From Gammaproteobacteria bacterium (lineage in GTDB: Bacteria > Pseudomonadota > Gammaproteobacteria > S144-34), in contig JALSJE010000090.1 of the NCBI GenBank assembly GCA_026989495.1, positions 1-55,886 of the forward strand: DNA of 55,886 bases. The letters run 5' to 3'. Below the pieces are notes generated by a model. The model worked only from the letters and a program-made list of their open reading frames with translations, searched no databases and was not told where the DNA came from. Shown here in pieces: positions 17-47,562 of the stretch; position 1 is the first letter of the stretch; every line of letters begins with the position of its first letter. The position numbers were made by a program, and so were the translations under genes.

Positions 17-159
17 ATCGATCCGCTGCGCGGAGCGATCAGCGCGATAGTGCCTTGCATTCCATTTCGATTTTTCGCGTGTCGTCATACACTTCCCTGT
101 GCATGGGCCGTCCCTGGCCGCGGGGAAGGCCTGAAAAGTCTCGATTTTTCAGGCCTTCC
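17..159 (-). repeat. Four-hairpin intergenic element, copy A
   Basis: Read on the minus strand, this begins 35 bases after the YqeY stop with a terminator-like hairpin (124-159; arms GGAAGGCCTGAAAA / TTTTCAGGCCTTCC). It then carries a GGCC dyad, a CATGCAC...GTGTATG hairpin and a final TCCGC-gca-GCGGA hairpin. The same order of modules occurs at 35978-36142 and 46405-46568, and its first two modules at 46633-46690. The left boundary is uncertain because the copy diverges towards the window edge. Confidence 0.85.
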
Positions 160-194: not shown

Positions 195-650
195 TCAGCC
201 GCCCAGTCGGGCCTTGACCCGGGCGCTGAGCGCGCCCATGTCGGCACGTCCCTGGACCTTGGGCTTGAGCCAGCCCATGACCTTGCCCATGTCGCGCATC
301 CCTTGGGCGCCGGTGGCGGCGATGGCCTCCTCGACGAGGGCCTCGAGGGCCGCCTCGTCCAGCGGCTCCGGAAGATAGGCCTGGATCAGCTCGAGCTCGT
401 AGCGCTCCTGCTCGGCCTGCTCGGAGCGACCGGCCTGGGCGTACTGCTCGGCCGCCTCGCGGCGCTGCTTGGCCAGCCGCTGGAGCACGGCGATGCCGGC
501 CGCCTCGTCCAGGGGGCCCTTGCCCTCCTTCTCCTTCTCCTGGAGGGCGGCGAGCACGAGGCGCAGCGCGCGGAGCCGCCGCTGGTCGCGCGCCTTGAGC
601 GCGGCCTTCATGTCCTGCTCGATGCGCGCCTTGAGGGTGGGCTCGGCCAT
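195..650 (-). CDS. GatB/YqeY domain protein
   Basis: This 151-residue protein is a free-standing YqeY-type domain related to the C-terminal tRNA-binding tail domain of the amidotransferase subunit GatB. It is mostly charged helix, opening with a KARIEQDMKAALKARD-type segment and containing a conserved IQAYLPEPLDE stretch, which is the family signature. Its usual length is about 148 residues, so it is complete. It follows rpsU on the same strand, the common gammaproteobacterial order (rpsU-yqeY, normally followed by dnaG and rpoD). Here an intergenic repeat follows instead and the window ends. Its cellular role is not established; tRNA-dependent amidation is an inference from the domain. Confidence 0.93.
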   Translation of the reverse strand: MAEPTLKARIEQDMKAALKARDQRRLRALRLVLAALQEKEKEGKGPLDEAAGIAVLQRLAKQRREAAEQYAQAGRSEQAEQERYELELIQAYLPEPLDEAALEALVEEAIAATGAQGMRDMGKVMGWLKPKVQGRADMGALSARVKARLGG

Positions 651-4155: not shown

Positions 4156-7100
4156 GTGGGCGCCGCCACCCGGCTCGTGGACGTCAAGGTCCTGCGCGGC
4201 TTCGAGCCGCTCGCGGGGCTCCCCCTGGACCGGCTCAAGGAGCTCGCGGCCAAGGCGCGCGTGATCCAGTATGCCGCGGGCCGGCCCGTCTACCGCCGGG
4301 GCGAGCGGACGCGCCACACCCTGTTCCTGCTCTCGGGCCAGGTCGTCTTCCGGCGCGAGGGCCGCCGCGACCAGACCGTGAAGGCCGGCAGCGCCCGCGC
4401 GCGCCGCGCCATCGTCCCCCCGGATGCCGGCACCGTCGAGGTCGTGGCCAAGGGGCAGGCGAGCCTGCTCTCGGTGGACACCGACCTGCTCGAGATCCTG
4501 CTGAGCTGGAACGATCCCGCCGCCTACGAGGTCACCGAGATCGACCTCGCCGAAGAGGAGGAAGGCGACGGCTGGCTCGCGCGCCTGCTGCAGCGGCCGG
4601 GCTTCCGGCGCCTGCCGGCCGAGGCGCTGCAGCGCCTCATGGGCCGCCTCGAGGAGGTGGCGGCGCAGGCCGGCGAGGCGGTGGTGCGCCAGGACGAGCG
4701 CGACGACGGGTACTACATCGTCAAGAGCGGGGCCTTCCGGGTGACGCGCCGGCCCGAGGCGGGCGCCGCGGAGGTGGAGCTGGCGCGCCTCGGCCCGGGC
4801 GACGGCTTCGGCGAGGAGGCGCTGATCACCGGCGGCGTGCGCAACGCCACCGTCACCGCCCTCGAGCAGGGCGTGCTGCTGCGGCTCGCGCGCCAGGACT
4901 TTCTCGAGCTGCTGGTCGGGCCCCTGGTGGAGTCCCTGGACGAGGAAGCCTGCGCCCGCCTGCTGCGCGAGGGCGCCGTGCTGCTGGACGTGCGCAGCCC
5001 CGAGGAGCACGAGCGCCAGCCCGTGGGTCTCAACGTGCCGCTGTCGGTGCTGCGGCTCAAGGCCGACAGCCTCGACCGCAGCCGCCGCTACGTGGTCTGC
5101 TGCGACGACGGCGCCCGCAGCCGCGCCGCCGCCTATCTCCTGGTGCAGCTCGGATTCGACGCGGTCCACCTCGCGGGCGGGCTCGCCGCCGCGGGGACGC
5201 CGGCAGGCGGCGAGGGGCAGGGCGCGGAGGTGGTGCCGCTGGCGGCGGCGCGCGAGGCCCGGGCGCGGCAGGCCCAGGAGGCCGAGCGCCGTGCCGAGCA
5301 GGCCGCCGAGCAGGCCCGGGCCGCCGACGCGGCGCGGGCGGCCGCGGAGCGGGAGCTGGCGGCGCTGCGCGCACGGCTGGCCGAGCTGGAGGGCGAGCTC
5401 GCCGCCGCGCGCGAGGCCGCCCAGGCGGCAGCCGCGGAGCGCGAGCGCCTCGCCGGGCGGGCGCAGGCGGCCGAGGCCGCCCGGCAGGAGGCGCAGGCGC
5501 GGCTGGAGGGCGCGGTCAGGGACGCGCGCGAAGCGGCGGGCGCCTCCCTGCGTGCCCTGCGCGACGAGGTGCAGACGCTGCGCCGCGAGCTCGCCCAGGC
5601 CCGCGAGGCCGCAGCCGCCTCGGCCGAGGCGGAGGAGGCCGCGCGGTCGCGGGTGGCGGAGCTGGAGCGGGCGCTCACCGAGCTTCAGGCGGACATGTCC
5701 GCGGCGGTGGAGCAGGCCCATGCGGACGTCGAGGGCCTGAAGCAGCGCATCGACAGGCTGGAGTCGGCACGGGCCGAGGCCGAGCGCCGGGTGGTCGAGC
5801 TCGAGCGCGACCTGGAGGCGGCCCGGGAGGATGCCGCGGCGGCGGCGCGGTCCGAGGAGGCCGAGGCGCGTGTGGAGGCCCTGGAGCGCGAGCTCGCCGA
5901 GGCGCGTGCGGCCGCCGAGCGGGCCCAGGCACGCGCGGACGAGCTCGCCGCCGCGCACGAGGCGGCCGAGGCCAGGGCCCGGGCGATGGCCCGGGAGCTG
6001 GAGGCGCTGAAGGCGCGGTCCGGCGAGGCCGAGTCGCTCCAGGGCCGGCTCGCCGAGCGCGAGCAGGCGCTGGCGCAGCTTCGGGCCCGGGTGGGCGAGC
6101 TCGAAGCGGCGGCGGAGGCCGCGCGCCGGCAGGAGGCGGATCTGCGCCGCCTGCTGGAGGCACGCGCGCGCGACGAGTCGGAGACGCTGGAGCGGCTGCA
6201 GGCCGAGCTGGCCCGGGCGCGGGAGGCGGAGGCCGGGCGGGCCGAGGCGGCCCGTCGGGCCGAGGCCGCCGCCGAGGCCGCCCGCGACCGGGCGGCCGCG
6301 CTGGAGCGGGAGCTGGCCAGCGCGCGGGCGGCGGCCGAGGCCTCGGAGGAGGCCCTGTGCGCGGCGCGCGCCGCCCTGGAGGAGGCCGGGCGCGAGCGCG
6401 ATGCCCTGCGCGAGCGTACGGTGGAGCTGGAGCGGGCGCTCGCCGAGCAGGAGCGGGCGCTCGAGGCGCTGCGGGCGCAGGCCGAGGGTACGGAGGCCCT
6501 GCGCGCGGAGCTCGAGGCGGCCCGCGCCGCCCGTGACGAGGCCGCCGGCCGTGCCGCCGGGCTGGCGGAAGAGCTCGAGACCCTGCGTGCGCAGCTTGAG
6601 GCCGTGCGCGCCGAGCTGGGCACGCGCGTGCGGGGGCTCGAGGAGCGTCTCGCCGCCGAGGAGGCCGCGCGCGCCGCGGCGGAGTCAGAACGGGACGCGC
6701 ATCGTGCCGCACTGGAGGCGGCGGGGCGCGAACGCGACGAGCTGCTGGAACGCATACGCGTCCTGGAAGCCGAGCTCGCCTCCCGCGAGGAGGCATTCGG
6801 TGCGTTGCGGGCGCAGGCCGAAGCCGATGCCGAGGCCGCCCGCGACCGGGCGGCCGCGCTGGAGCGGGAGCTGGCCAGCGCGCGGGCGGCGGCCGAGGCC
6901 TCGGAGGAGGCCCTGCGCGCGGCGCGCGCCGCCCTGGAGGAGGCCGGGCGCGAGCGCGAAGCCCTGCGCGAGCGTACGGCGGAGCTGGAGCGTGCCCTCG
7001 CCGAGCGTGAGGAGGCGCTGCGTACCGCCGAGGAGCGCGCGGCGAGCCTGCTGCGCACCCGCATCGGGACGCTCGAGCGCGAGCGCGACGAGGCCCGTGC

Positions 7101-9204
7101 CGCGCTCGAGCAGGCCGAGCGGCGCCGCGAGGAGGCCGAGGCACGGCTCGAGGCGGCCCGCGAGGAGGCTGCCCGGGCGGCCTGGAAGGAGGCGGCCGAG
7201 CGGCTCGAGCGGCTCGAGGGCGAACGGTCCGCGGCGCTGGGACGGGCGGAGGCGGCCGAACGCGCCGCGGCCGAGCTGCGCGGGCGGGTCGAGACGCTGG
7301 AGCGGGAGCTCGAGGCCGCGGGCGCCGCCCGCCGCGAGCTGGCCTCGCGCCTCGAGGCCGAGGCCGGCCGTGCGGAGGCGGCCGAGGCGCGGGCGGCCGA
7401 GCTGGAGGGGAAGGCGAAGGCCCTGGAGGCCGAGCTGGCCGAGGCCCGCGCCCGGCTGGGGGCGGTCCCGGAGCCGGGGGCGCTGGAGGCGCAGGCGCAG
7501 CGGCACCGGGAGGAGGTCCAGGCGCTGCAGGAGGCCGTCGATGCCGCCGTGGCCCGGGCCGCCGAGGCCGAGGTGGTGCGCGACGAGGTGCTGCGCGACC
7601 TCGAGCAGCTCCGGTCCGAGGCGCAGGAGGCGCGCCGGGCCCTGGAGGCCGTGCGCGCGGAGCTGGCCGAGGCGCGGGACGCGGTCGAGGCGGCGCGGGC
7701 CGAGCGGGATGCGGCCTTCGAGCAGGCGCGCGCGGCCGAGGCGGCCCGGCGCGAGGCCGAGCAGCGGATCGCGCGGCTGGAGCGCGAGCGTGCGGCCCTG
7801 GAAGCGCGGGCGGCCCAGGCCGGCGACGCCGCCACGGTGGAGGTGGCGCGCGTGGAGGCCGAGCTCGGTGCGCTGCGCGAGCGGCTCGCCGAGGAGACGC
7901 GGCGCGCCGCCGGGGCCGAGGCGGAGCTGGCCGCGCTGCGCGCGCGGCTCGAGGCCCAGGAGGACCGGACCGCGGAGGCCGAGCGGCGCGGCAGCGAGCT
8001 GGAGGCCGAGGTGCGCCGGCTCGAGGCGGCGCTCGAGGCCTTGCGCGCCGCGCATCCGGCCGGGAGTGTCACCATGGAGCCGGGCCCGCGGCGGCAGGAG
8101 CCGGAGCCGGTCGCGCCGGCCGGCGGCGGGCCGGGGCCGGCGCTGCCGGTCCCGGAGATCCCGCCGGAGGGCGGGCAGGCGCCGGCCCTGGCCGGGCCGC
8201 CACCGGGCGCGGGGCCGGCGGCCGCCGGGCCGGAGGAGGGGGATGACGCCTTCGTGGTGGCCGCGGCCGTGCCCGTGCTGGAGCCGGGGCCGGGCCCCGA
8301 AGGGGCGGAGCCTGCGCCGGCGCCGGAGGCGCCCGGGCCGGCCGCCGTCGCCCCCATCGAGCAGGCTCCCGAGGCCGCGCCCGCGGCCGGGCCCCGTCCC
8401 GGGACAGGGGTGGCCCCGGCGGAGACGGAAGCCGATCCCGCTTCCGGCGAGGGCCCCTCGTCGCGTCCGCGCCGCCGCGGCCTCCTCTACCTGGGCGTGG
8501 CCGCGGCGAGTCTCGCAGCGCTGGCAGTGACCGCCTGGGTGCTGCTGCGCGTCTCGCCGCCGCCGCCGGAGATCGCGGCAGAGCCGGTGGCGGCGGCGGG
8601 TGTCGTCGTCCGCGCCCCGTCGCCGCGCCGCGACGGTGGCGCGGCCGGGAACCCGGATGGGAGTGCCGCCGCCGGCGGGCCGGCGGCGCCTCGTCCGGCC
8701 CGCGCCGCCGGACGGGGCCGTCCTTCCGGGGACGCCGGCGGGCCGTCCGGCCGGCGGGAGGCGGCGGCGCCGGCCCGCCCGCATCCCGGCGCTGATGCGG
8801 CCGAGCGGCGGCTGCTCGCGGCCGCCGAGGCGCGCTGGCGGGCCCGCCTCGCGGCGGCGGCCGGCAAGGCGCCCGCCGCACCGGCGCCCGCCGCGGCCTC
8901 CGCGCCAGCGTCGGGTCCGGCCGCGGGCCGGGTGGCGGCGGAGAAGTCCGGCGCGCCCGAGACCCGCGCCGCTGCGCCGGAGCGGAGCGGACCGGAAGAG
9001 GAGGTCTACGAGGGTGATCCGGACGGATCCGACGCGTCCGCCGGAGGCGGCGCGGTGGGCGCCGGCCGGGAAGCGTCGCCCGGCGGGGCGGGGCTCGCCG
9101 CCGGCGCCGTCCCGGAGCCCCTGGCCGGCGGAGCCGCCGGCGCGTCGCCCCCTGCGCCGGGCCCGGTGGACGAGGAGACGGCGGCGTCCGCGCCCGCGGG
9201 CTGA
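4156..9204 (+). CDS. Giant cNMP-binding / rhodanese / coiled-coil membrane protein
   Basis: This 1682-residue protein has an unusual layout. Residues ~1-120 are a degenerate cyclic-nucleotide-binding fold. Residues ~150-260 are a second one with an intact-looking phosphate-binding cassette (FGEEALITGGVRNATV). Residues ~265-345 are a rhodanese domain with loop CDDGARS (Cys316 as likely catalytic residue). Residues ~360-1300 are an almost unbroken Ala/Glu/Arg coiled coil. A Pro/Ala-rich linker leads to one transmembrane helix (~1443-1465, LLYLGVAAASLAALAVTAWV) and a low-complexity tail. The GTG start follows a strong AGGAGGAG-type site. Presumably the N-terminus and rod are cytoplasmic and the protein is anchored near its C-terminus. 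A cyclase is encoded at 11878-12942, so cNMP signalling is plausible. Its function is unknown; a structural or tethering role is a guess. Confidence 0.85.
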   Translation: MGAATRLVDVKVLRGFEPLAGLPLDRLKELAAKARVIQYAAGRPVYRRGERTRHTLFLLSGQVVFRREGRRDQTVKAGSARARRAIVPPDAGTVEVVAKGQASLLSVDTDLLEILLSWNDPAAYEVTEIDLAEEEEGDGWLARLLQRPGFRRLPAEALQRLMGRLEEVAAQAGEAVVRQDERDDGYYIVKSGAFRVTRRPEAGAAEVELARLGPGDGFGEEALITGGVRNATVTALEQGVLLRLARQDFLELLVGPLVESLDEEACARLLREGAVLLDVRSPEEHERQPVGLNVPLSVLRLKADSLDRSRRYVVCCDDGARSRAAAYLLVQLGFDAVHLAGGLAAAGTPAGGEGQGAEVVPLAAAREARARQAQEAERRAEQAAEQARAADAARAAAERELAALRARLAELEGELAAAREAAQAAAAERERLAGRAQAAEAARQEAQARLEGAVRDAREAAGASLRALRDEVQTLRRELAQAREAAAASAEAEEAARSRVAELERALTELQADMSAAVEQAHADVEGLKQRIDRLESARAEAERRVVELERDLEAAREDAAAAARSEEAEARVEALERELAEARAAAERAQARADELAAAHEAAEARARAMARELEALKARSGEAESLQGRLAEREQALAQLRARVGELEAAAEAARRQEADLRRLLEARARDESETLERLQAELARAREAEAGRAEAARRAEAAAEAARDRAAALERELASARAAAEASEEALCAARAALEEAGRERDALRERTVELERALAEQERALEALRAQAEGTEALRAELEAARAARDEAAGRAAGLAEELETLRAQLEAVRAELGTRVRGLEERLAAEEAARAAAESERDAHRAALEAAGRERDELLERIRVLEAELASREEAFGALRAQAEADAEAARDRAAALERELASARAAAEASEEALRAARAALEEAGREREALRERTAELERALAEREEALRTAEERAASLLRTRIGTLERERDEARAALEQAERRREEAEARLEAAREEAARAAWKEAAERLERLEGERSAALGRAEAAERAAAELRGRVETLERELEAAGAARRELASRLEAEAGRAEAAEARAAELEGKAKALEAELAEARARLGAVPEPGALEAQAQRHREEVQALQEAVDAAVARAAEAEVVRDEVLRDLEQLRSEAQEARRALEAVRAELAEARDAVEAARAERDAAFEQARAAEAARREAEQRIARLERERAALEARAAQAGDAATVEVARVEAELGALRERLAEETRRAAGAEAELAALRARLEAQEDRTAEAERRGSELEAEVRRLEAALEALRAAHPAGSVTMEPGPRRQEPEPVAPAGGGPGPALPVPEIPPEGGQAPALAGPPPGAGPAAAGPEEGDDAFVVAAAVPVLEPGPGPEGAEPAPAPEAPGPAAVAPIEQAPEAAPAAGPRPGTGVAPAETEADPASGEGPSSRPRRRGLLYLGVAAASLAALAVTAWVLLRVSPPPPEIAAEPVAAAGVVVRAPSPRRDGGAAGNPDGSAAAGGPAAPRPARAAGRGRPSGDAGGPSGRREAAAPARPHPGADAAERRLLAAAEARWRARLAAAAGKAPAAPAPAAASAPASGPAAGRVAAEKSGAPETRAAAPERSGPEEEVYEGDPDGSDASAGGGAVGAGREASPGGAGLAAGAVPEPLAGGAAGASPPAPGPVDEETAASAPAG
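6271..7005. repeat. Long direct repeat inside the coiled-coil gene
   Basis: Bases 6271-6447 and 6829-7005 are near-identical direct repeats spaced 558 bp (186 codons) apart. They differ at only a handful of bases and encode the same coiled-coil segment (for example AARDRAAALERELASARAAA). This points to recent in-frame duplication or gene conversion within the rod. Confidence 0.85.
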
Positions 9205-15079: not shown

Positions 15080-16277
15080 GCGGGGAAAGCTACCCGAAAA
15101 GGCCGGCCACGGGGAGCGCCGCAACGCCCGCAGGTGGGGTGACCTGCCCTCGGCACCGGTCCCGAACCCCCGGCGCCGGAATGCGGACGGGGCACGGCGG
15201 GCAGCCTGGATGCTCGCGCTGGTCGCGGCCGCGGCGGCGCTGGCCGGCTGCACGGAGCTCGGTTACTACGCGCGCCTTGCGGGCGGCCACCTCGGGCGGG
15301 TCGCGCGGGCCGAGCCGGTCGAGGCACTGCTGGCCGATCCGGCCACGCCGCCGCGGCTGCGCGAGCGGCTGCGGCTGGCCCGGGCGATGGTGCGCTTCGC
15401 CGCGGCCGAGCTCGGCCTGCCGGCGGACGGGTCCTATGCCCGCTACGTGGATCTCGGCGGACGCTGGCCCGCGTGGGCCGTCTTCGCCGCGCCGCGGCGG
15501 CGCATGGCGCTGCTCGCCTGGTGCCATCCGGTGGTGGGCTGCCTCGGCTACCGGGGCTTCCTGGACGAGGCCCGCGCCCGCGCCTTCGCGCGCCGGCTCG
15601 CGCAGCAGGGCTACGACGTGCACGTGGGCCCGGTGGCGGCCTACTCAACCCTGGGATGGACGGAGGACCTCATCACCTCGTCCATGCTGGCCTGGCCGGA
15701 GCCGCAGCTCGCGGCGCTGGTCTTCCATGAGCTGGCGCACCGGCGGGTGTACGTCCCGGGCGCGACCGCCTTCAACGAGGCCTACGCCACGGCGGTGCAG
15801 CGTGCCGGCGTGCGCCGGTGGCTGCGCCGCCGCGGCCGTCTGCGGGCGCTGGCCGCCTGGGAGCGGGAGGAGGCCATGGCGCAGGCCATGGCCGCGCTCG
15901 TGGCGCGCTACCGCCGGCGCCTGGCCGCGGCCTATGCCGCCCCGGGCACAGCGGCCGAGCGGATGCAGGCCAGGGCGGCGCTCGCCCGGGCGCTGCGCGC
16001 CGAGTACCTGCGCCTGCGCGCACGGCTCGGCAGCGAGGCCTGGGACGGCTGGACGCTCTCCGGCCTGAACAACGCCAAGCTGCTGGCCTTCGCCACCTAC
16101 CGTGAGGATGTGCCCGCCTTCGAGTGCCTGCTGGCGGCCGCGGGCGGCGAGATCGCCCGTTTCCACGCCCGGATGGCGGCACTGGCGCGCCTGGATGCGG
16201 CGGCGCGCCGACGCGCGCTGGCGCGCGCCTGCCTCAGCGGAGCTGGCGCAGGGGGAGCTCGCGCCGGTAGCGGTTGA
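15078..16277 (+). CDS. Predicted zinc aminopeptidase lipoprotein (COG4324 type)
   Basis: This protein resembles the COG4324 predicted aminopeptidases. It has a lipobox (ALAGC) followed by [14 protein letters not shown], a typical start of the mature family members. The zinc motif [13 protein letters not shown] comes with a downstream [10 protein letters not shown] glutamate. The frame opens at 15078, giving 399 residues, but the in-frame ATG at 15210 places the hydrophobic lipoprotein signal almost at the N-terminus. The 44 extra residues of the long form are charged and Pro-rich. I report the longer form because the Arg residues before the hydrophobic core may serve as the n-region and 15210 has a poor ribosome site. 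Predicted outer- or inner-membrane lipoprotein. Confidence 0.85.
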
Positions 16278-27698: not shown

Positions 27699-30600
27699 TC
27701 AGGCGCGGGCCTTGCGGCGCGCCGAGAAGACCAGCCAGCGGCGCGGGCGCTCGGGCTCGCCGGGCACGGGGCGCGCCGGCTCGAACTCGGGTGCGCTGCG
27801 GGCGGGCTCGTCCGCGGCGGCCGGATAGATCCGCACCCGCACGTCGTACCAGCCGGCCTGTCCCGTGACGGGGTCGGAGTTGGAGATGCGGCCGCCCGCC
27901 GTGCCGGGCCTGGGCGATGCGGCATCGGGTTCGGCGGCGGTGCCGGCGGCAGGCCGCCCCGCCTGCGGGCGCTGCGGCGCTCCCCGCGACTGCGCGCTGC
28001 GCGCGCCCGTGTCCGCGCCGCCCGCCGTCCCGACCGGGAGCTCCTCGGTGATGAGGTGGTTGAGGAGGAAGCCCTCGCGCCCCTCGTTGGCGTCGGGGGC
28101 GAGGTTCCAGGCCCCGGGCTGCTTGCCGATGGCGTTCCAGGTCCAGACCGTGTTGGGTTCGACCGCCTCGGAGAAGCGGCAGCGGCAGCGCACCCGCCCC
28201 CAGGGCGACTCCACCCACACCCAGCCGCCGTCCTCGACGCCGATGCGCTCGCCGAGGCGCGGGCTCATGTAGAGGTAGTTGTAGGTATGGATCTGGCGCA
28301 GCCAGGCGTTCTGCGAGTCCCAGGAGTGGTACATGGCCATGGGGCGCTGGGTGACGGCGCTGAGCGGGTAGCGCTGCGTGTCCGTCACCTGCGCCTCGAG
28401 CGGCTCGTAGTAGAAGGGCAGCGGATCGAAGTAGGTCTCGACGCGCTTGCGCAGGCGCTCGGGCGGCCGCTTGCCAGGCCACTTGCCCCTGGCGGCGAGC
28501 CGGAACTTCTGCAGCACCTCCGAGTAGATCTGGATCATGATGGGCTCGGCGTAGCGCGTGAGGCGGTGGCGCTGAGCCCACTCCAGGTAGCCCTGGTTCC
28601 AGTTGCGGAAGTACTGGTAGCTGCGCGGCAGCTCGTAGTGGAAGACGCAGCCGTTCTTCTCGTACATCTCCCACTGGCGCGGGTTGGGCTCGCCGCGCAG
28701 GTGCTTCTCGCCGCCCCTGCCGCGCCAGCCGGCGAGGAAGCCGATGCCGGAGCCGGGCTCGGTCTCGTAGTTGACGATGAAGTCCGGGTAGTCGCGGTAC
28801 TTGCGCGAGCCGTCCGGGTTGACGAAGGCCGGGAGCCGCAGGCGCGTGCCGAGCTCGATGAGCACCTCCTGGAAGGGCTTGCATTCGCCGAGCGGCGGCA
28901 CCACCGGGATGCGCACCGAGTCCACCGGCCCGTCGAACTCCGAGATGGGCCGGTCGAGCAGGCTCATGACGTCGTGGCGCTCGAGGTAGGTGGTGTCGGG
29001 CAGCACCAGGTCGGCGAAGGCCACCATCTCCGACTGGAAGGCGTCGCACACCACCAGGAAGGGGATCCTGTACTCCCCGTTCTCGTCCTTGTCGTTGAGC
29101 ATGCGGCGGATCTCCACCGTGTTCATGGTGGAGTTCCAGGCCATGTTGGCCATGAAGATCATGAGCGTGTCGATGCGGTAGGGGTCGCCGCGCCAGGCGT
29201 TGGTGATGACGTTGTGCATCAGCCCGTGCACCGACAGCGGGTACTCCCAGGAGAAGCCCTTGTCGATGCGCACCGGCTCGCCGCGCTCGTCCACGAAGAG
29301 GTCGTCGGGGTCGGCGGGCCAGCCGAGCGGCATGCCGTTGAGGGGCTCGCCCGGGCGAACGTCTGCGGGGCCCTTGGGCGGCTTGGCGCAGGGCGGGATG
29401 GGGCGCGGGAAGGGCGCCTTGTGGCGGAAGCCGCCGGGCCGGTCGATGGTGCCCAGCACCGTCATCAGGATCGAGAGCGCCCGGATGGTGTGGAAACCGT
29501 TGGAGTGGGCGGCCAGGCCCCGCATGGCGTGGAAGGCCACGGGGTTGCCCGTCACCGACTCGTGCTCCTTGCCCCAGGCGTCGGTCCAGGGGATGGGGAG
29601 CTCGATACGGTAGTCGCGCGCGGTCACGCCCATCTCGTGGGCGAGCCGCCGGATGGTCTCGGCCGGGATGCCGGTGATGCGTGCCGCCCACTCGGGCGTG
29701 TAGTCCTTGAGGCGGTCGACCAGGAGCTGGAAGGCCGGCTTGACCGGCGTGCCGTCGTCGAGGCGGAAGCTGCCGAGGAGGTAGGGGTCGGCGCCCTCGG
29801 TGTGGGTGCGCACGGGCCGGTCGGTGTGGCGGTCCCACCAGAGCTGGTTCTGGGGGTCGAAGCAGCCCTCGGGGGCGGGATCGTCCGTGCGCACGAACAG
29901 GCCCTCCTCGGGGCTCGCGGGGTCCACGTTCACCAGCTGCGGCGCGTTGGTGTAGCGCACCAGGAAGTCACGGTCGTAGAGGCCCTTGCGGACGATCTCG
30001 TGGGTGATGGCGAGCAGCAGGGCGCCGTCGGTGCCGGGGCGGATGGGCACCCACTCGTCGGCGATGGCCGAGTAGCCCGTGCGCACCGGGTTGATGGAGA
30101 TGAAGCGCCCGCCCCGGCGCTTGAACCTGGAGATCGCGATCTTGAGCGGATTCGAGTGGTGGTCCTCGGCGGTGCCGATCATCACGAAGAGGCGGGCGCG
30201 CTCCAGGTCCGGGCCGCCGAACTCCCAGAAGGAGCCGCCGATGGTGTAGATCATGCCGGCGGCCATGTTGACCGAGCAGAAGCCGCCGTGGGCCGCGTAG
30301 TTGGGCGTGCCGAACTGCTTGGCGAAGAGCCCCGTGAGGGCCTGCATCTGGTCGCGGCCGGTGAAGAGGGCGAACTGCTTCGGGTCGGTCTCGCGGATGC
30401 GCGCGAGGCGCTCCTCCAGGATGCGGAAGGCCTCGTCCCAGGAGATGGGCTCGAACTCGCCCGCGCCGCGCTCGGCGCCCGGCTTGCGCAGCAGGGGCCG
30501 GGTCAGGCGCGCCGGCGAGTACTGCTTCATGATCCCCGAGGCGCCCTTGGCGCAGATCACCCCCTTGTTGAGGGGGTGGTCGGGATTGCCCTGGATGTAG

Positions 30601-35052: not shown

Positions 35053-35976
35053 ATGAGCGACATCGGCAAGCTGGTGCAGGATCCGCCCAAGGGACCGATC
35101 GAGCCCGTGCGTCTGGGGCTCGACGATGTCATCCAGTTCCACTGTCGGCCCGGCATCGCCTGCTGGAACGCCTGCTGCCGCAGCATCGACATCCAGCTCA
35201 CACCCTATGACGTGCTGAGGCTCTCGCGCAGGCTGGGCATTCCCACCTGGCGGTTCCTCGCCGAGCACGCCGTGCAGTTCGACCTCGATCCGCACGGGAT
35301 GCCGGGCATCAAGCTCAAGCCGGTCGAGGGCGGCACGGAGTGCCGCTTCCTGCGTGAGGAGGGCTGCGGGGTGTACGAGGACCGCCCCGCCGCCTGCCGC
35401 TACTATGCGCTCGGCGCCATGGGGCTGCGCAGGATGGGCACCAGCGAGGTGGAGGACATCTACTTCCTGGTGAAGGAGCCGCACTGCCTCGGCCACAAGG
35501 AGCCGCGCCGCATCACGATCCGCGAGTACCGGCGCGAGCAGGGGGTCGAGAAGTACGACGACATGAACCGGGAGTGGCGCGAGATCGTGCTCAAGAAGCG
35601 CTCTTCCGGCCCCACCATCGGCGCGCCTTCCGAGCGCAGCTTCGACCTCTTCTTCATGGCGAGCTACGACCTCGACAGCTTCCGGCTCTTCACCCAGAGC
35701 GAAGGCTTCCGCGAGATGTTCGACCTGCCGGAGGCCGAGCTGAAACGGCTCGAGGAGGACGACGAGGCGCTGCTCGCCTTCGCCATGCGCTTCCTGAAGC
35801 AGGTCCTGTTCGGCGAGCAGACCATCCCCCTGCGGCCCGGGGCGCGGGAGCGGCGCCTGGCGCGGCGTAAGGACAAGATCGAGCAGCGGCTCAAGGCCGA
35901 GGCCGCGCGCCGCGAGGCGCACGATCCGAGATATGACGAACCCGGCGAGGACGAGGGCAAGGGGAAGAGCGACTAA
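35053..35976 (+). CDS. YkgJ-family cysteine-cluster protein
   Basis: This 307-residue protein has an N-terminal Cys-rich zinc/iron-chelating domain of the YkgJ/CxxCxxCC type (HCRPGIACWNACCRSIDI, then CRFLREEGCGVYEDRPAACRYYA) up to about residue 120. A charged helical C-terminal half with no recognised domain follows. It begins 135 bases after aprA, beyond a terminator, so it may have its own promoter, although read-through is possible. A role in metal-centre assembly for the island is conceivable but unproven. The start is the ATG giving MSDIGKLVQDPPKG. Repeat copy B begins 2 bases after its stop. Confidence 0.85.
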   Translation: MSDIGKLVQDPPKGPIEPVRLGLDDVIQFHCRPGIACWNACCRSIDIQLTPYDVLRLSRRLGIPTWRFLAEHAVQFDLDPHGMPGIKLKPVEGGTECRFLREEGCGVYEDRPAACRYYALGAMGLRRMGTSEVEDIYFLVKEPHCLGHKEPRRITIREYRREQGVEKYDDMNREWREIVLKKRSSGPTIGAPSERSFDLFFMASYDLDSFRLFTQSEGFREMFDLPEAELKRLEEDDEALLAFAMRFLKQVLFGEQTIPLRPGARERRLARRKDKIEQRLKAEAARREAHDPRYDEPGEDEGKGKSD

Positions 35977-35977
35977 A

Positions 35978-36142
35978 GGAAGGGCTGAAAAATCTCGATT
36001 TTTCAGGGCTTCCCCGCGGCCAGGGACGGCCGCGGAATGGTCCATGCACAGGGAAGTGCATGACGACAAACGGAAAATCGAGATGGACCGCGAAGCGCCA
36101 TCGCGCTGATCAGTCCGCGCAGCGGATTGATCAGAGTTTCCG
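35978..36142 (+). repeat. Four-hairpin intergenic element, copy B
   Basis: This is the clearest copy. H1 is 35978-36013, a terminator-like stem with two internal mismatches. H2 is CCGCGGCC (36014-36021) with GGCCGCGG (36028-36035). H3 is CATGCAC (36043-36049) with GTGCATG (36056-36062). H4 is TGATCA-g-TCCGC (36107-36118) with GCGGA-t-TGATCA (36122-36133). It fills the whole gap between the convergent YkgJ-type gene and the PstS-like gene. Confidence 0.92.
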
Positions 36143-36146
36143 TTCA

Positions 36147-37088
36147 CTATCTGCGATACAGGCCACGCTCGCGCGCGCGCTTCTCCTGCTCCACCTCCTT
36201 CATCACCAGGCGCAGGGCCTCCAGATAGGGCACGGTGCCGTTCTCCCGGATGACACGCCGGCCCGCCGAGCTGTGGGCGAACTTCACGAACTTCTCGAGC
36301 TCGGCGTAGCCGGGGTGGTTGGGGTTGAGCACCAGGTAGAGGGGGCGGTAGAGGAGGTACTCACCCTTCCTGATGTTCTCGAAGGTGGGCTCCTTGCCCT
36401 CCAGCTTCAGGATCTTGACCTTGCGCTTGCGGGCGCTGGAGATGCCGGTGATCCCGACGGCATTGACGTCCTTCTCCACCGCCTTCTCCAGCGGGCCCGA
36501 GGACTTCACCACCTTGTAGGCCTTGAACTCGACGTCGTAGTCGGCGAAGACCAGCTTGCGGATGGCCCGCCCCACGCCGGAGATCTTGCCGCGGCGAACG
36601 TACAGCCGGATGGGCGCGTCGTTGCCGCCGAGCTCCTTCCAGTTGCGGATCTTGCCCAGGTAGAGGCCGCGAATCTGGTCGAGGGTGATGTCGGAGACGG
36701 GGTTGTCGGGGTGGACGATCACCGCCAGCGCGTCCCAGGCCACCGGACGGAGCTCGGCGCCGAGCTCCTGCGGGTGGCCCGTGATCTTGTTGCGGCAGGA
36801 GCCGCCGATGTCGGCCTTGCCGGCGGCGACCTCGCGGATGCCGCGCGTGGCGCCTCCGCCCTCGATCTCGATCTTCACGCCGGTCCTGGCCTCGTAGGCG
36901 GCCGCGAGCTCCTTCATGAAGGCCTTCTTGGTGATGCCGCAGCCGACCCAGCGGTAGGTCTTCTTGGACGGTGCCGCAGCCGGACCGGGCTTCGCGGCAC
37001 CCTGATCTGAGGCGCCCAGGACGTTCCCCACGGGAAAGGCCAGGGTGGCGGCCAGGATGCCGCCCGCCAGGAAACGCAACCCGCGCAT
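36147..37088 (-). CDS. PstS-like periplasmic substrate-binding protein
   Basis: This 313-residue type II periplasmic binding protein of the phosphate-binding (PBP-like) group has a signal peptide ending near VLGA. Then come YRWVGCGITKKAFMKEL, EIEGGGATRGIREVAAGKADIGGSCR and PVAWDALAVIVHPDNPVSDITLDQIRG, standard PstS-family segments. No ABC permease or ATPase gene is nearby, so it is an orphan. Its place between aprBA and qmo-hdr suggests a link to sulfur oxidation or oxyanion sensing, but the ligand cannot be told from sequence. An AGGAGGA site and a perfect TATAAT precede it. Confidence 0.85.
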   Translation of the reverse strand: MRGLRFLAGGILAATLAFPVGNVLGASDQGAAKPGPAAAPSKKTYRWVGCGITKKAFMKELAAAYEARTGVKIEIEGGGATRGIREVAAGKADIGGSCRNKITGHPQELGAELRPVAWDALAVIVHPDNPVSDITLDQIRGLYLGKIRNWKELGGNDAPIRLYVRRGKISGVGRAIRKLVFADYDVEFKAYKVVKSSGPLEKAVEKDVNAVGITGISSARKRKVKILKLEGKEPTFENIRKGEYLLYRPLYLVLNPNHPGYAELEKFVKFAHSSAGRRVIRENGTVPYLEALRLVMKEVEQEKRARERGLYRR

Positions 37089-45889: not shown

Positions 45890-46402
45890 ATGGGAACGGT
45901 GCCGACAGTCAGTGCCGCCCCGGTCCGCACGGTGGATCTCACGGGGCTCGGCCTGCACCGCCTGCTGCCCGAGCTGCGCCGGGCGCTCGCGGCCGTGGAC
46001 GTGGGCCAGGTGGTGCGCTTCGTGTGCGACGCCCCGGGCGTGGCCGAGGACGTGCGCGCCTGGGCCCGCCACCTGGGCTACGAGATCACCGAGCTGGTGC
46101 GCCGCGGAAGGCTGGTGCACGTGGACGTGCGCAACGGCGATCCCTGGACCCCGTGGCGCACCCTCCGTCTCGAGGGCGAGCGCTGCCCGCGGCCTGCGGT
46201 GGAGGCGCGCCGGGCGCTCGCGGCCATGCCGCCGGGGGCGGTCCTGAAGCTGGTGAGCGGCTGTCCCGGCGCGCCCACGGACATCCCCGCGTGGGCGGCC
46301 CGCACCGGCCATACGCTCCTGGGCGCCACCCGCGACGCCGATGGCGTGTGGTCCTTCTACCTTCGGGCCCGACCGGCGGACGCCCCTGCGCGGGTTTCCT
46401 GA
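45890..46402 (+). CDS. Tandem TusA-like sulfur carrier protein
   Basis: This 170-residue protein consists of two TusA-like (SirA) domains, residues ~13-82 and ~90-166, joined directly. The second has the sulfur-carrying motif C99-P100-x-P102 (EGERCPRP), followed by ARRALAAMPPG and TDIPAWAARTGH, the standard TusA pattern. The first aligns without gaps (LTGLGLHR, then RRALAAVDVG) but has Leu22-His23 in place of Cys-Pro, so it cannot carry a persulfide there. Each domain has another Cys in the equivalent strand (Cys46, Cys125). A GGGAGGAA site makes the ATG start clear. It lies 193 bases after the CbbO/NorD-type gene. A role in cytoplasmic sulfur transfer is inferred. Confidence 0.85.
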   Translation: MGTVPTVSAAPVRTVDLTGLGLHRLLPELRRALAAVDVGQVVRFVCDAPGVAEDVRAWARHLGYEITELVRRGRLVHVDVRNGDPWTPWRTLRLEGERCPRPAVEARRALAAMPPGAVLKLVSGCPGAPTDIPAWAARTGHTLLGATRDADGVWSFYLRARPADAPARVS

Positions 46403-46404
46403 AG

Positions 46405-46568
46405 GGAAGGTCTGAAAAATGGCGATTTTTCAGGCCTTCCCCGCGGCCAGGGACGGCCGCGGGAGGGGCCATGCACAGGGAAGTGCATGACGACTCAAGG
46501 AAAATCAGAATGACCGCGAAGCACTATCGCGCTGATCGATCCGCGCAGCGGATTGATCAGAGTTTCCG
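46405..46568 (+). repeat. Four-hairpin intergenic element, copy C
   Basis: It starts 2 bases after the stop of the tandem TusA-like gene. H1 is 46405-46440 (one G-T pair, 4-base loop), followed by the CCGCGGCC/GGCCGCGG stem, the CATGCAC/GTGCATG stem and the TCCGC-gca-GCGGA stem in the same order as copy B. It lies on the left side of the gap before convergent pyrE. Confidence 0.92.
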
Positions 46569-46632
46569 AAGAAAATCCTGATAGATCCGCCGTGCGGCTG
46601 GATTCAGCGCGAAGGTGCTTCGCGATCCAACT

Positions 46633-46690
46633 GGAAGGGCTGAAAAATCACGGTTTTTCAGCCCTCCCCCGTGGCCAGGGATGGCCGCGG
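46633..46690 (+). repeat. Four-hairpin element, partial copy D
   Basis: Only H1 (GGAAGGGCTGAAAAA with TTTTTCAGCCCTCCC, one mismatch) and H2 (CCGTGGCC with GGCCGCGG, one G-T pair) remain. It follows copy C by 64 bases, which hold a CGCGAAG-gtg-CTTCGCG hairpin (46608-46624) and a degraded H4-like sequence. Confidence 0.85.
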
Positions 46691-46920
46691 GTTCCTGAAA
46701 TGTTCCGGTCTCCGTGGTGGCAGCTTTCCAACGCATTGAGGCCGGCTGGAAGCCGGCGCCACGGGCGAGAAGCCGCGCTGCCGGACGCGGTCGCTCCCGC
46801 CGCCCCCGCCCCTGGGCATCATCTTGGGACGATCGAAGCTGGGCGCATGCGGGAGGCGTTCGCCGCGGAAGGTGCCTGGGCGGGGTGACCCCCGCGGGCC
46901 ACGTCACGGTTCGGCAGCGC
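46691..46920. other. Non-coding gap before pyrE
   Basis: No gene is seen in this stretch. It contains a short GCCGGCT-gga-AGCCGGC hairpin (46741-46757) and otherwise GC-rich sequence without a convincing promoter, terminator or RNA. Apparent open frames here are continuations of repeat sequence. Confidence 0.6.
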
Positions 46921-47562
46921 TCAGGCGCCGTACTCGGCCTGGTAGGCGCGCAGGCGCTCGAGGTCGTCCGCGCGCGCGGGGTCTCGCTCCAGGAAGCGGA
47001 TCAGCTCGTCGAGCGAGACGATGGCGAGTGCCCTGAGGCCATGGCGCTGCTCGATCTCGCGCATGGCCGCGAGCGCCCCGCTGCCCCGCTCGCGCCGGTC
47101 GAGCGCCACCATCACCCCCACCGGCTCGGCCCCCGCCTCGCGGATGATGGCCACCGACTCGTTGACCGAGGTGCCGGCCGAGACCACGTCGTCGACGATC
47201 ACCACGCGGCCCGCGAGCGGCGCGCCCACGAGGCGCCCGCCCTCGCCGTGGTGCTTGACCTCCTTGCGGTTGAAGGCCCAGGGCACGTCGCGTCCGTGGT
47301 CGGCGGCCAGCGCGATGGCCGTGGCCGCCACCAGCGGGATGCCCTTGTAGGCCGGGCCATAGAGCATGTCGAAGTCAAGGCCGGACTCCACCAGGGCGCG
47401 CGCGTAGTAGCCGCCGAGGCGGCGCAGGCGCCCGCCCGTGTCGAACAGCCCCGCGTTGAAGAAGTAGGGGCTGAGGCGTCCCGACTTGAGGCGGAATTCG
47501 CCGAAGCGCAGCACCCCCGTCTCGAGGGCGAAGGCGATGAACTCCTGCTGCCAGTCTTTCAT
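46921..47562 (-). CDS. pyrE: Orotate phosphoribosyltransferase
   Basis: This 213-residue enzyme of pyrimidine synthesis joins orotate and PRPP to form OMP. It starts MKDWQQEFIAFALETGVLRFGEF. FKLKSGR-type RLKSGRLSPYFFNAG, GPAYKGIPLVAATA, FNRKEVKHHGEGG and the PRPP-binding loop VVIVDDVVSAGTSV are all present. Length is normal. It is divergent from xth by 114 bases; pyrE next to an exonuclease III gene is a common gammaproteobacterial pairing. Confidence 0.98.
   Translation of the reverse strand: MKDWQQEFIAFALETGVLRFGEFRLKSGRLSPYFFNAGLFDTGGRLRRLGGYYARALVESGLDFDMLYGPAYKGIPLVAATAIALAADHGRDVPWAFNRKEVKHHGEGGRLVGAPLAGRVVIVDDVVSAGTSVNESVAIIREAGAEPVGVMVALDRRERGSGALAAMREIEQRHGLRALAIVSLDELIRFLERDPARADDLERLRAYQAEYGA

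Follow-up and report, generated by a model that had tools for sequence, protein, structure and literature searches.

Organisation of the repeat in the analysed DNA

The window, which is the whole stretch of 55,886 nt that was analysed, has three copies (A, B and C) and one fragment (D) of a non-coding repeat element of 163 bp at full length. The G+C content of the element is 57% as against 73% for the genome. The copies, their hairpins (H1 to H4) and the adjoining genes are given below.

17..159, minus strand: copy A, a MITE in which the H2 arm is shortened and a segment close to the right end is deleted
195..650, minus strand: YqeY gene, upstream of copy A
35053..35976, plus strand: CxxCxxCC (zinc/iron-chelating) domain gene, upstream of copy B
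35978..36141, plus strand: copy B, full-length MITE that takes up the whole gap between its two convergent neighbours
36014..36035, plus strand: H2 of copy B, loop AGGGAC at 36022-36027
36043..36062, plus strand: H3 of copy B, loop AGGGAA at 36050-36055
36147..37088, minus strand: solute-binding protein gene (PBP_like_2), convergent, past copy B
45890..46402, plus strand: TusA-domain gene, upstream of copy C
46401..46404, no strand: left target-site duplication GAAG of copy C, overlapping the TGA stop codon at 46400-46402
46405..46567, plus strand: copy C, full-length MITE of 163 bp, the top-scoring copy in the family model
46405..46440, plus strand: H1 of copy C, a palindrome made of the left terminal inverted repeat and its own inverted copy
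46441..46462, plus strand: H2 hairpin of copy C, loop AGGGAC at 46449-46454 closed by C-G, predicted CsrA-type ANGGAN site
46470..46489, plus strand: H3 hairpin of copy C, CATGCAC-AGGGAA-GTGCATG, loop at 46477-46482, predicted CsrA-type ANGGAN site
46532..46560, plus strand: H4 of copy C, a palindrome that includes most of the right terminal inverted repeat
46568..46571, no strand: right target-site duplication GAAG of copy C, read from the sequence
46572..46703, no strand: copy D, a rearranged fragment with an inverted right half (about 46572-46630) followed by H1 and H2
46921..47562, minus strand: phosphoribosyltransferase-domain gene, probably pyrE, convergent to the TusA-domain gene

A preliminary description of this DNA had placed the copies shortly after stop codons, and the positions agree with it. 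Copy C starts at 46405, 2 bases past the TGA ending at 46402, and copy A, on the minus strand, begins 35 bases past the stop at 195. The distance for copy B, given as 2 bases, is right within a base, the start at 35978 being 1 base past the TAA that ends at 35976. Copy B occupies the gap up to the convergent gene with its stop at 36147, and copies C and D lie between the convergent TusA-like and phosphoribosyltransferase genes, as had been described. The H1 (46633-46667) and H2 (46668-46691) of copy D are in the plus orientation and the fragment is not an ordinary copy. Copies C and B fold with a stability far beyond chance in comparison with shuffled sequences (z of -11.0 and -6.7 respectively).

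The window also has repeats of other kinds. A second, unrelated dispersed repeat is present at 15110-15169 and 27892-28021, with inverted arms of 60 nt at 15110 and 27927 (85%), and matches of 71-78% to it are seen at L161:509-583, at L042:15689-15817 and beside a copy of the MITE in the congener G001 (L117). A direct repeat of 204 bp (94%) at 6258-6461 and 6816-7019 is situated within an open reading frame of 1682 codons (4156-9204) that probably encodes a long coiled-coil protein.

Family size and distribution

The genome from which the window is derived (G000, a draft of 2.54 Mb in 143 contigs, of an uncultured gammaproteobacterium) has 112 occurrences of the H3 pattern when as many as 3 mismatches are allowed, and the reversed pattern used as a control has none. 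A slightly different H3 pattern occurs 45 times in the congener G001 and 38 times in the congener G002. The sequence examined comprises 1.44 Mb of G000 (57%) and 0.30 Mb of the congeners, all from draft genomes; 118 full copies were used for the column statistics and 114 for the count of duplications. Full copies have a median identity of 90% to the consensus, and the family, with its 163 bp, its lack of coding capacity and its at least 112 near-identical copies, is in these respects a typical MITE, a non-autonomous transposon. Contigs C34, C40, C53, C63, C74 and C96 of G000 end in or beside a copy (for example C74:1-148 and C96:13293-13420), which indicates that the assembly has been broken at the repeat and that the true copy number is probably higher.

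No full-length relative has been identified in 34 other genomes of the class, and a scan for the terminal repeat found none in 366 others. In a sample of 398 genomes of the phylum, just short matches of 22-29 bp to H2 or H4 are found outside the genus. The element was not found in plasmids or phages, the exact H3 pattern has no match in the contigs of GTDB r220 and no Rfam family matches the element at the gathering score. The TsaD gene of the genome has an identity of at most 72% (best segment) to the database records compared, which assigns the host to the Gammaproteobacteria and no further.

Ends, target duplications and empty sites

The two ends of the element are near-invariant and form terminal inverted repeats (GGAAGSTCTGAAAAATC at the left and GGAAACTCTGATCAATC, reversed, at the right). 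Exact repeats of 4 bp are found at the inferred boundary in 52 of 114 copies, as compared with a median of 1 over shifted boundaries, and the count becomes 62 of 117 once duplicated ends are allowed. Copy C is bordered on both sides by GAAG; copies A and B are without an intact target duplication. The targets reconstructed for 54 sites have a palindromic AT-rich core, roughly A-A-W-C-[WGNA]-G-W-A-T-T.

Filled and empty sites are found between the congeners. The copy at L136:9620-9782 of G002 corresponds to an empty site in G001 (L121) where CTAA occurs once, and the copy at L119:2281-2443 of G001 to an empty site in G000 (L051) where TACC occurs once; more than a dozen further alignments to empty sites span the junctions. 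At the locus of copy C, G002 is without the element but shares the stop codon of the TusA gene, in its orthologue, and the convergent neighbour, and the stop codon therefore predates copy C. The preliminary description had raised a mobile element as one of its options, and this part is borne out by the terminal inverted repeats, the exact 4-bp target duplications and the empty sites in congeners: the element is almost certainly mobile, as judged from these sequence comparisons.

Variant copies with altered ends are also present. The terminal 12 bp (ATCAGAGTTTCC) is tandemly duplicated at the right end of five copies (L073:3221-3395, L047:17023-17198, L045:17628-17803, L053:6971-7153 and L041:2576-2750), and an extra left half-end of about 18-19 bp precedes H1 in three others (L066:8402-8583, L063:8743-8922 and L053:74-255). 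The 4-bp duplication lies outside the extra right end or left half-end, and such variants have therefore moved as units. A rearranged fragment similar to copy D is found at L163:6864-6963, in which an inverted right half is followed by the 37-bp H1 palindrome with TTCT on both sides; this palindrome is perhaps a minimal mobile unit. In-frame insertion of the kind known for the Rickettsia palindromic elements was considered and rejected, since the sum of 163 + 4 bp is not divisible by 3 and no copy is intragenic according to the gene calls.

A transposase acting in trans, putatively of the DDE type, would recognise the terminal inverted repeats (GGAARSTCTGAWMAATC) and duplicate 4 bp of the AT-rich palindromic target. 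A search for such a partner with five DDE families (PF01609, PF05598, PF13586, PF13701 and PF13546) and Y1 gave no transposase with matching ends in the three draft genomes, with 57% of G000 covered, and drafts of this kind may omit multi-copy IS elements. The single IS1182-like transposase gene (L138, G000:C47) and the single IS5-like one (L139, G001:C192) have ends that do not match the MITE. The start with GGAAG and the 4-bp duplication are features that we take to resemble the IS5 group; derivation from this family is not supported, the sole IS5-like element (L139) having ends (GAAGCTATCTCAAAAAT) without a match to those of the MITE. The L139 element, located at a contig end, has perfect ends of 19 bp (TAGAAGCTATCTCAAAAAT) with a vague likeness to the MITE ends.

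Position and orientation with respect to genes

Genes were called with a codon-position Markov caller trained on G+C content, for which the starts are approximate. According to these calls no copy of substantial score lies inside a gene and all are intergenic. The gaps of G000 that hold a copy comprise 51 tandem, 16 convergent and 14 divergent ones, where 45.7, 12.3 and 23.0 are expected by length (p=0.07). The location between convergent genes emphasised in the preliminary description is hence mostly small-sample luck, the gaps being mainly tandem.

Within the gaps the copies are not placed at random. Twenty-two copies are found within 10 bp of a stop codon as compared with 10.7 expected (p=0.0005). 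Start codons show the opposite, with 8 copies at a distance of up to 20 bp where 15.6 are expected (p=0.003). Both expectations are for copies put at random positions of their own gaps. Of the 68 copies in tandem gaps, 48 have H1 towards the upstream stop and the plus strand co-directional with transcription (p=0.0009), and this holds near stops or not. The preference for AT-rich targets does not account for the surplus at stop codons. Some of the insertions near stops interrupt the ancestral gene in its last codons, as in L059 where the native stop is seven codons further on; this agrees with insertions being tolerated at the ends of genes.

The rule that the element sits after stop codons with its hairpin first holds as a real but moderate bias and not as a general rule. 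Random positions and orientations over the genome had been named as what would speak against it, and the genome-wide mapping gives an intermediate picture of strictly intergenic copies with moderate stop-codon and orientation biases.

Inner hairpins with CsrA-type loops

The two inner hairpins are H2 (CCGCGGCC-AGGGAC-GGCCGCGG) and H3 (CATGCAC-AGGGAA-GTGCATG). Both have an ANGGAN hexaloop closed by a C-G pair on a stem, which is the arrangement of a CsrA/RsmA site. CsrA and RsmE are known to recognise a hairpin with an ANGGAN loop in which the A and the GGA are contacted and the N is free (PMC7652899). H3 reads CACAGGGAAGUG and matches both ANGGAN and the consensus RUACARGGAUGU obtained for CsrA by SELEX (PMC7652899). 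The stems of H2 and H3, with 7-8 bp, are longer than those of most SELEX sites, for which four or fewer base pairs are usual (PMC7652899).

H2 and H3 are the best-conserved part of the element, above the terminal repeats themselves. The GGA of H3 is unchanged in all 118 copies, and the preceding N varies (82 copies have G, 27 have T and 8 have C). Mean divergence from the consensus is 0.2% for the A.GGA positions of H3 and 4% for those of H2, as compared with 17-20% for the N positions and 17-19% for the linkers; among the stems it is 1.0-1.5% for H2 and H3, 9.6% for H1 and 3.7% for H4. Parsimony on a tree from which H2 and H3 had been left out assigns 0.25 changes per A.GGA site to H3 and 4.75 to H2, as compared with 9 and 18 per N site and 9.0 per linker site. 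The A.GGA choice has the fewest changes among all 225 ways of picking 4+4 loop sites; the loop motif was noticed after the alignment, so that this rank of 1 in 225 is the fairest single figure.

The A, the GGA and the closing pair are kept together in 116 of 118 copies for H3 and in 99 of 118 for H2. In 93 copies a distance of 28 nt separates the GGA motif of one hairpin from that of the other. The minimum free energy fold of the plus strand has the closed hexaloop in 102 (H3) and 78 (H2) of the 118 copies, and that of the minus strand in none. In the 1.44 Mb of G000, 166 of the 193 strong C-ANGGAN-G hairpins (with five more base pairs) are inside elements. Copies read in the plus sense keep intact sites more often (intact loops in 39 of 44 against 9 of 16, p=0.010), a weakly supported tendency that is not robust to a stricter hairpin definition (32 of 44 against 8 of 16, p=0.13).

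The genome has a csrA gene at L156:249-503 (Pfam PF02599, E=9.5e-26), and its product is 83% identical to CsrA of E. coli. Its neighbours at this locus are presumably the genes of aspartate kinase and alanyl-tRNA synthetase. In Rfam, copies B and C come closest to the TwoAYGGAY RNA (RF01731), with 22.2 and 26.5 bits respectively as against a gathering score of 43; this sub-threshold likeness is only suggestive, and 12 other loci have no TwoAYGGAY match at E<=1. The TwoAYGGAY RNA has been predicted by others to bind CsrA (PMC4333381).

In an unrelated genome of another gammaproteobacterial genus a perfect H2-like hairpin (CGCGGCCAGGGACGGCCGCG) has been observed a few bases past an apparent stop codon (L277, about position 1502, minus strand). 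The occurrence of ANGGAN hairpins at the ends of genes may be a wider phenomenon.

Proposed role of the element

These observations point, with moderate confidence, to a MITE that would be moved in trans and would carry a two-hairpin CsrA-binding cargo, by which it would affect or titrate the CsrA of the host. Within one gammaproteobacterial genus the element would have colonised the intergenic DNA. Selection would have removed most copies from gene bodies and start regions, leaving a surplus just past stop codons, and copies in transcribed spacers, oriented so that the GGA loops are in the mRNA, would have been retained more often. The cargo would consist of H2 and H3, with their C-ANGGAN-G hexaloops 28 nt apart on the plus strand. 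Where transcription passes through a copy along its plus strand, as expected for most tandem-gap copies, host CsrA would be expected to bind both hairpins, and a CsrA dimer bridging H2 and H3 could change the stability or translation of the flanking mRNA. Many transcribed copies together may titrate CsrA.

The first alternative to be weighed is a purely selfish MITE, in which H2 and H3 would be needed by the transposase or by a host DNA-binding protein during transposition, with no role at the RNA level, and the bias in position would reflect what selection tolerates. Mobility itself is demonstrated by the duplications and empty sites, a transposition requirement would look conserved because copies descend from active sources, and insertions near starts are depleted as such a reading would have it. 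The pattern of conservation is however that of an RNA-protein signature, with a single-stranded ANGGAN kept and the N positions and linkers free, the inner hairpins are better conserved than the terminal repeats, and an orientation bias of 48:20 with respect to transcription is unexpected for a parasite acting only as DNA. We regard the selfish reading as rather unlikely.

The preliminary description had suggested a role of another kind, with H1 as the terminator stem of a transcription terminator, an insulator or a protector of mRNA 3' ends. The twofold surplus within 10 bp of stops, the H1-first orientation of most tandem-gap copies and the very stable hairpins agree with it. On the plus strand G-U pairs also exceed A-C pairs by 71:42 (p=0.008 with one polymorphic column left out), which suggests that the structure is kept as plus-strand RNA, the copies not being independent. 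An intrinsic terminator has a GC-rich stem followed by a U-run, but H1 is followed by CCGCGG without such a run. A terminator scan gave no site at copy C and one weak site, in H4, at copy B, near the level of shuffled sequences. Furthermore, H1 is less conserved than H2 and H3. Strong termination would also often do harm at the many copies that are closely upstream of genes: among 84 copies of G000, 32 start codons are found at most 50 bp from a copy. The terminator role is not upheld by these results, and this group of explanations as a whole is improbable. A role of the element in the 3' region of mRNAs is plausible, and the best-supported candidate for it is the predicted binding of CsrA by H2 and H3, which the preliminary description did not see.

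The same description had offered a mobile element that targets transcription terminators, for which the surplus near stop codons and the frequency of A/T runs of 4 near the targets (17.5% against 4%) could be cited. The reconstructed targets, however, fold less than random intergenic DNA (median MFE of -24.9 as against -30.6 kcal/mol, p=2e-6) and have shorter stems, the target is defined by an AT-rich palindrome, and some near-stop insertions such as that in L059 lie within the last codons. Targeting of terminators is accordingly not supported and is very improbable.

A REP/BIME or REPIN array mobilised by a tyrosine transposase of the RAYT (Y1) type can hardly be entertained. The repeats are palindromic, extragenic and in more than 100 copies and the genome has one Y1 transposase gene (G000:C114). 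Long terminal inverted repeats together with exact duplications of 4 bp, however, are characteristic of DDE transposition and not of Y1, and the empty sites and reconstructed targets speak against a presence of the 4-bp repeats before insertion. The locus of the Y1 gene (L193) has no match to the H1, H2 or H3 motifs, and the two congeners carry the repeat yet have no Y1 match.

Comparison with known repeats and RNAs

The ERIC or IRU elements of enterobacteria are similar in being short (127 bp), high-copy, intergenic, palindromic and MITE-like and in being often co-transcribed with genes (PMC2229807, PMC10969869). In Yersinia the effect of ERIC on the mRNA depends on orientation (PMC2229807, PMC10969869). 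ERIC differs in that its reported effect is an RNase E site and its ends carry 5'-TA (PMC2229807), whereas in the present element the ends are GGAA/TTCC, the target is AT-rich with a length of 4 bp and the loops are of the CsrA type. Its consensus starts with GGAAG and ends with TTTCC, the flanks are not TA and it is without the ERIC sequence.

The Correia or NEMIS elements of Neisseria are MITEs of about 100-200 bp with terminal inverted repeats and more than 100 copies, and influence the processing of mRNA (RNase III) when transcribed. Unlike the present element they have TA termini, an IHF site and reported promoters. A search of the present element gave no IHF consensus site, and a hybrid promoter built by the right end was rejected as the composition of the flank has no -10 signal at the right spacing. 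CsrA-type loops are not described for Correia or NEMIS in the literature examined.

YPAL or RU-2 of Yersinia is likewise about 168 bp long and not A+T-rich, with target duplications and with filled and empty sites between species (PMC2229807). It differs in its duplications of 3-26 bp beside dyad symmetry and its internal inverted repeats, where the present element has 4-bp duplications, terminal inverted repeats and unstructured targets. REPINs, the repeats associated with RAYT, are also high-copy, extragenic, palindromic and mobile (PMC3116915); the present element differs from them in the 4-bp target duplications, the terminal inverted repeats and the absence of the Y1 gene from the vicinity of the repeat.

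The inner hairpins have their counterparts in the TwoAYGGAY RNA (RF01731) and in the sponge RNAs CsrB, CsrC and RsmXYZ, which have two or more hairpins of ANGGAN type with predicted or known binding of CsrA (PMC4333381, PMC7652899). Sponges of the CsrB type are dedicated sRNAs, in contrast to the present element, which is a transposable repeat in more than 100 copies for which no promoter of its own has been found.

Significance of the element

The element is a new family of MITE. Promoters, IHF sites and RNase sites are among the features already known from MITEs of bacteria (PMC10969869), and ERIC and Correia elements set the precedent that MITEs inside transcripts can alter the fate of the mRNA (PMC2229807, PMC10969869). 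No report of a MITE with paired CsrA-type hairpins as a conserved cargo was found in the open-access literature.

The copies hold most of the strong CsrA-type hairpins in the sequence examined, and it is tentatively suggested, at less than even confidence, that they may both place mRNAs under CsrA and act as a dispersed CsrA sponge, replacing CsrB-type sRNAs or beside them. Filled and empty sites between sister species make the origin of CsrA sites testable. If CsrA is bound, the element would be a direct example of a global post-transcriptional regulon that gains many targets quickly, by insertion and not by point mutation, and an example of a protein sponge built from transposon copies.
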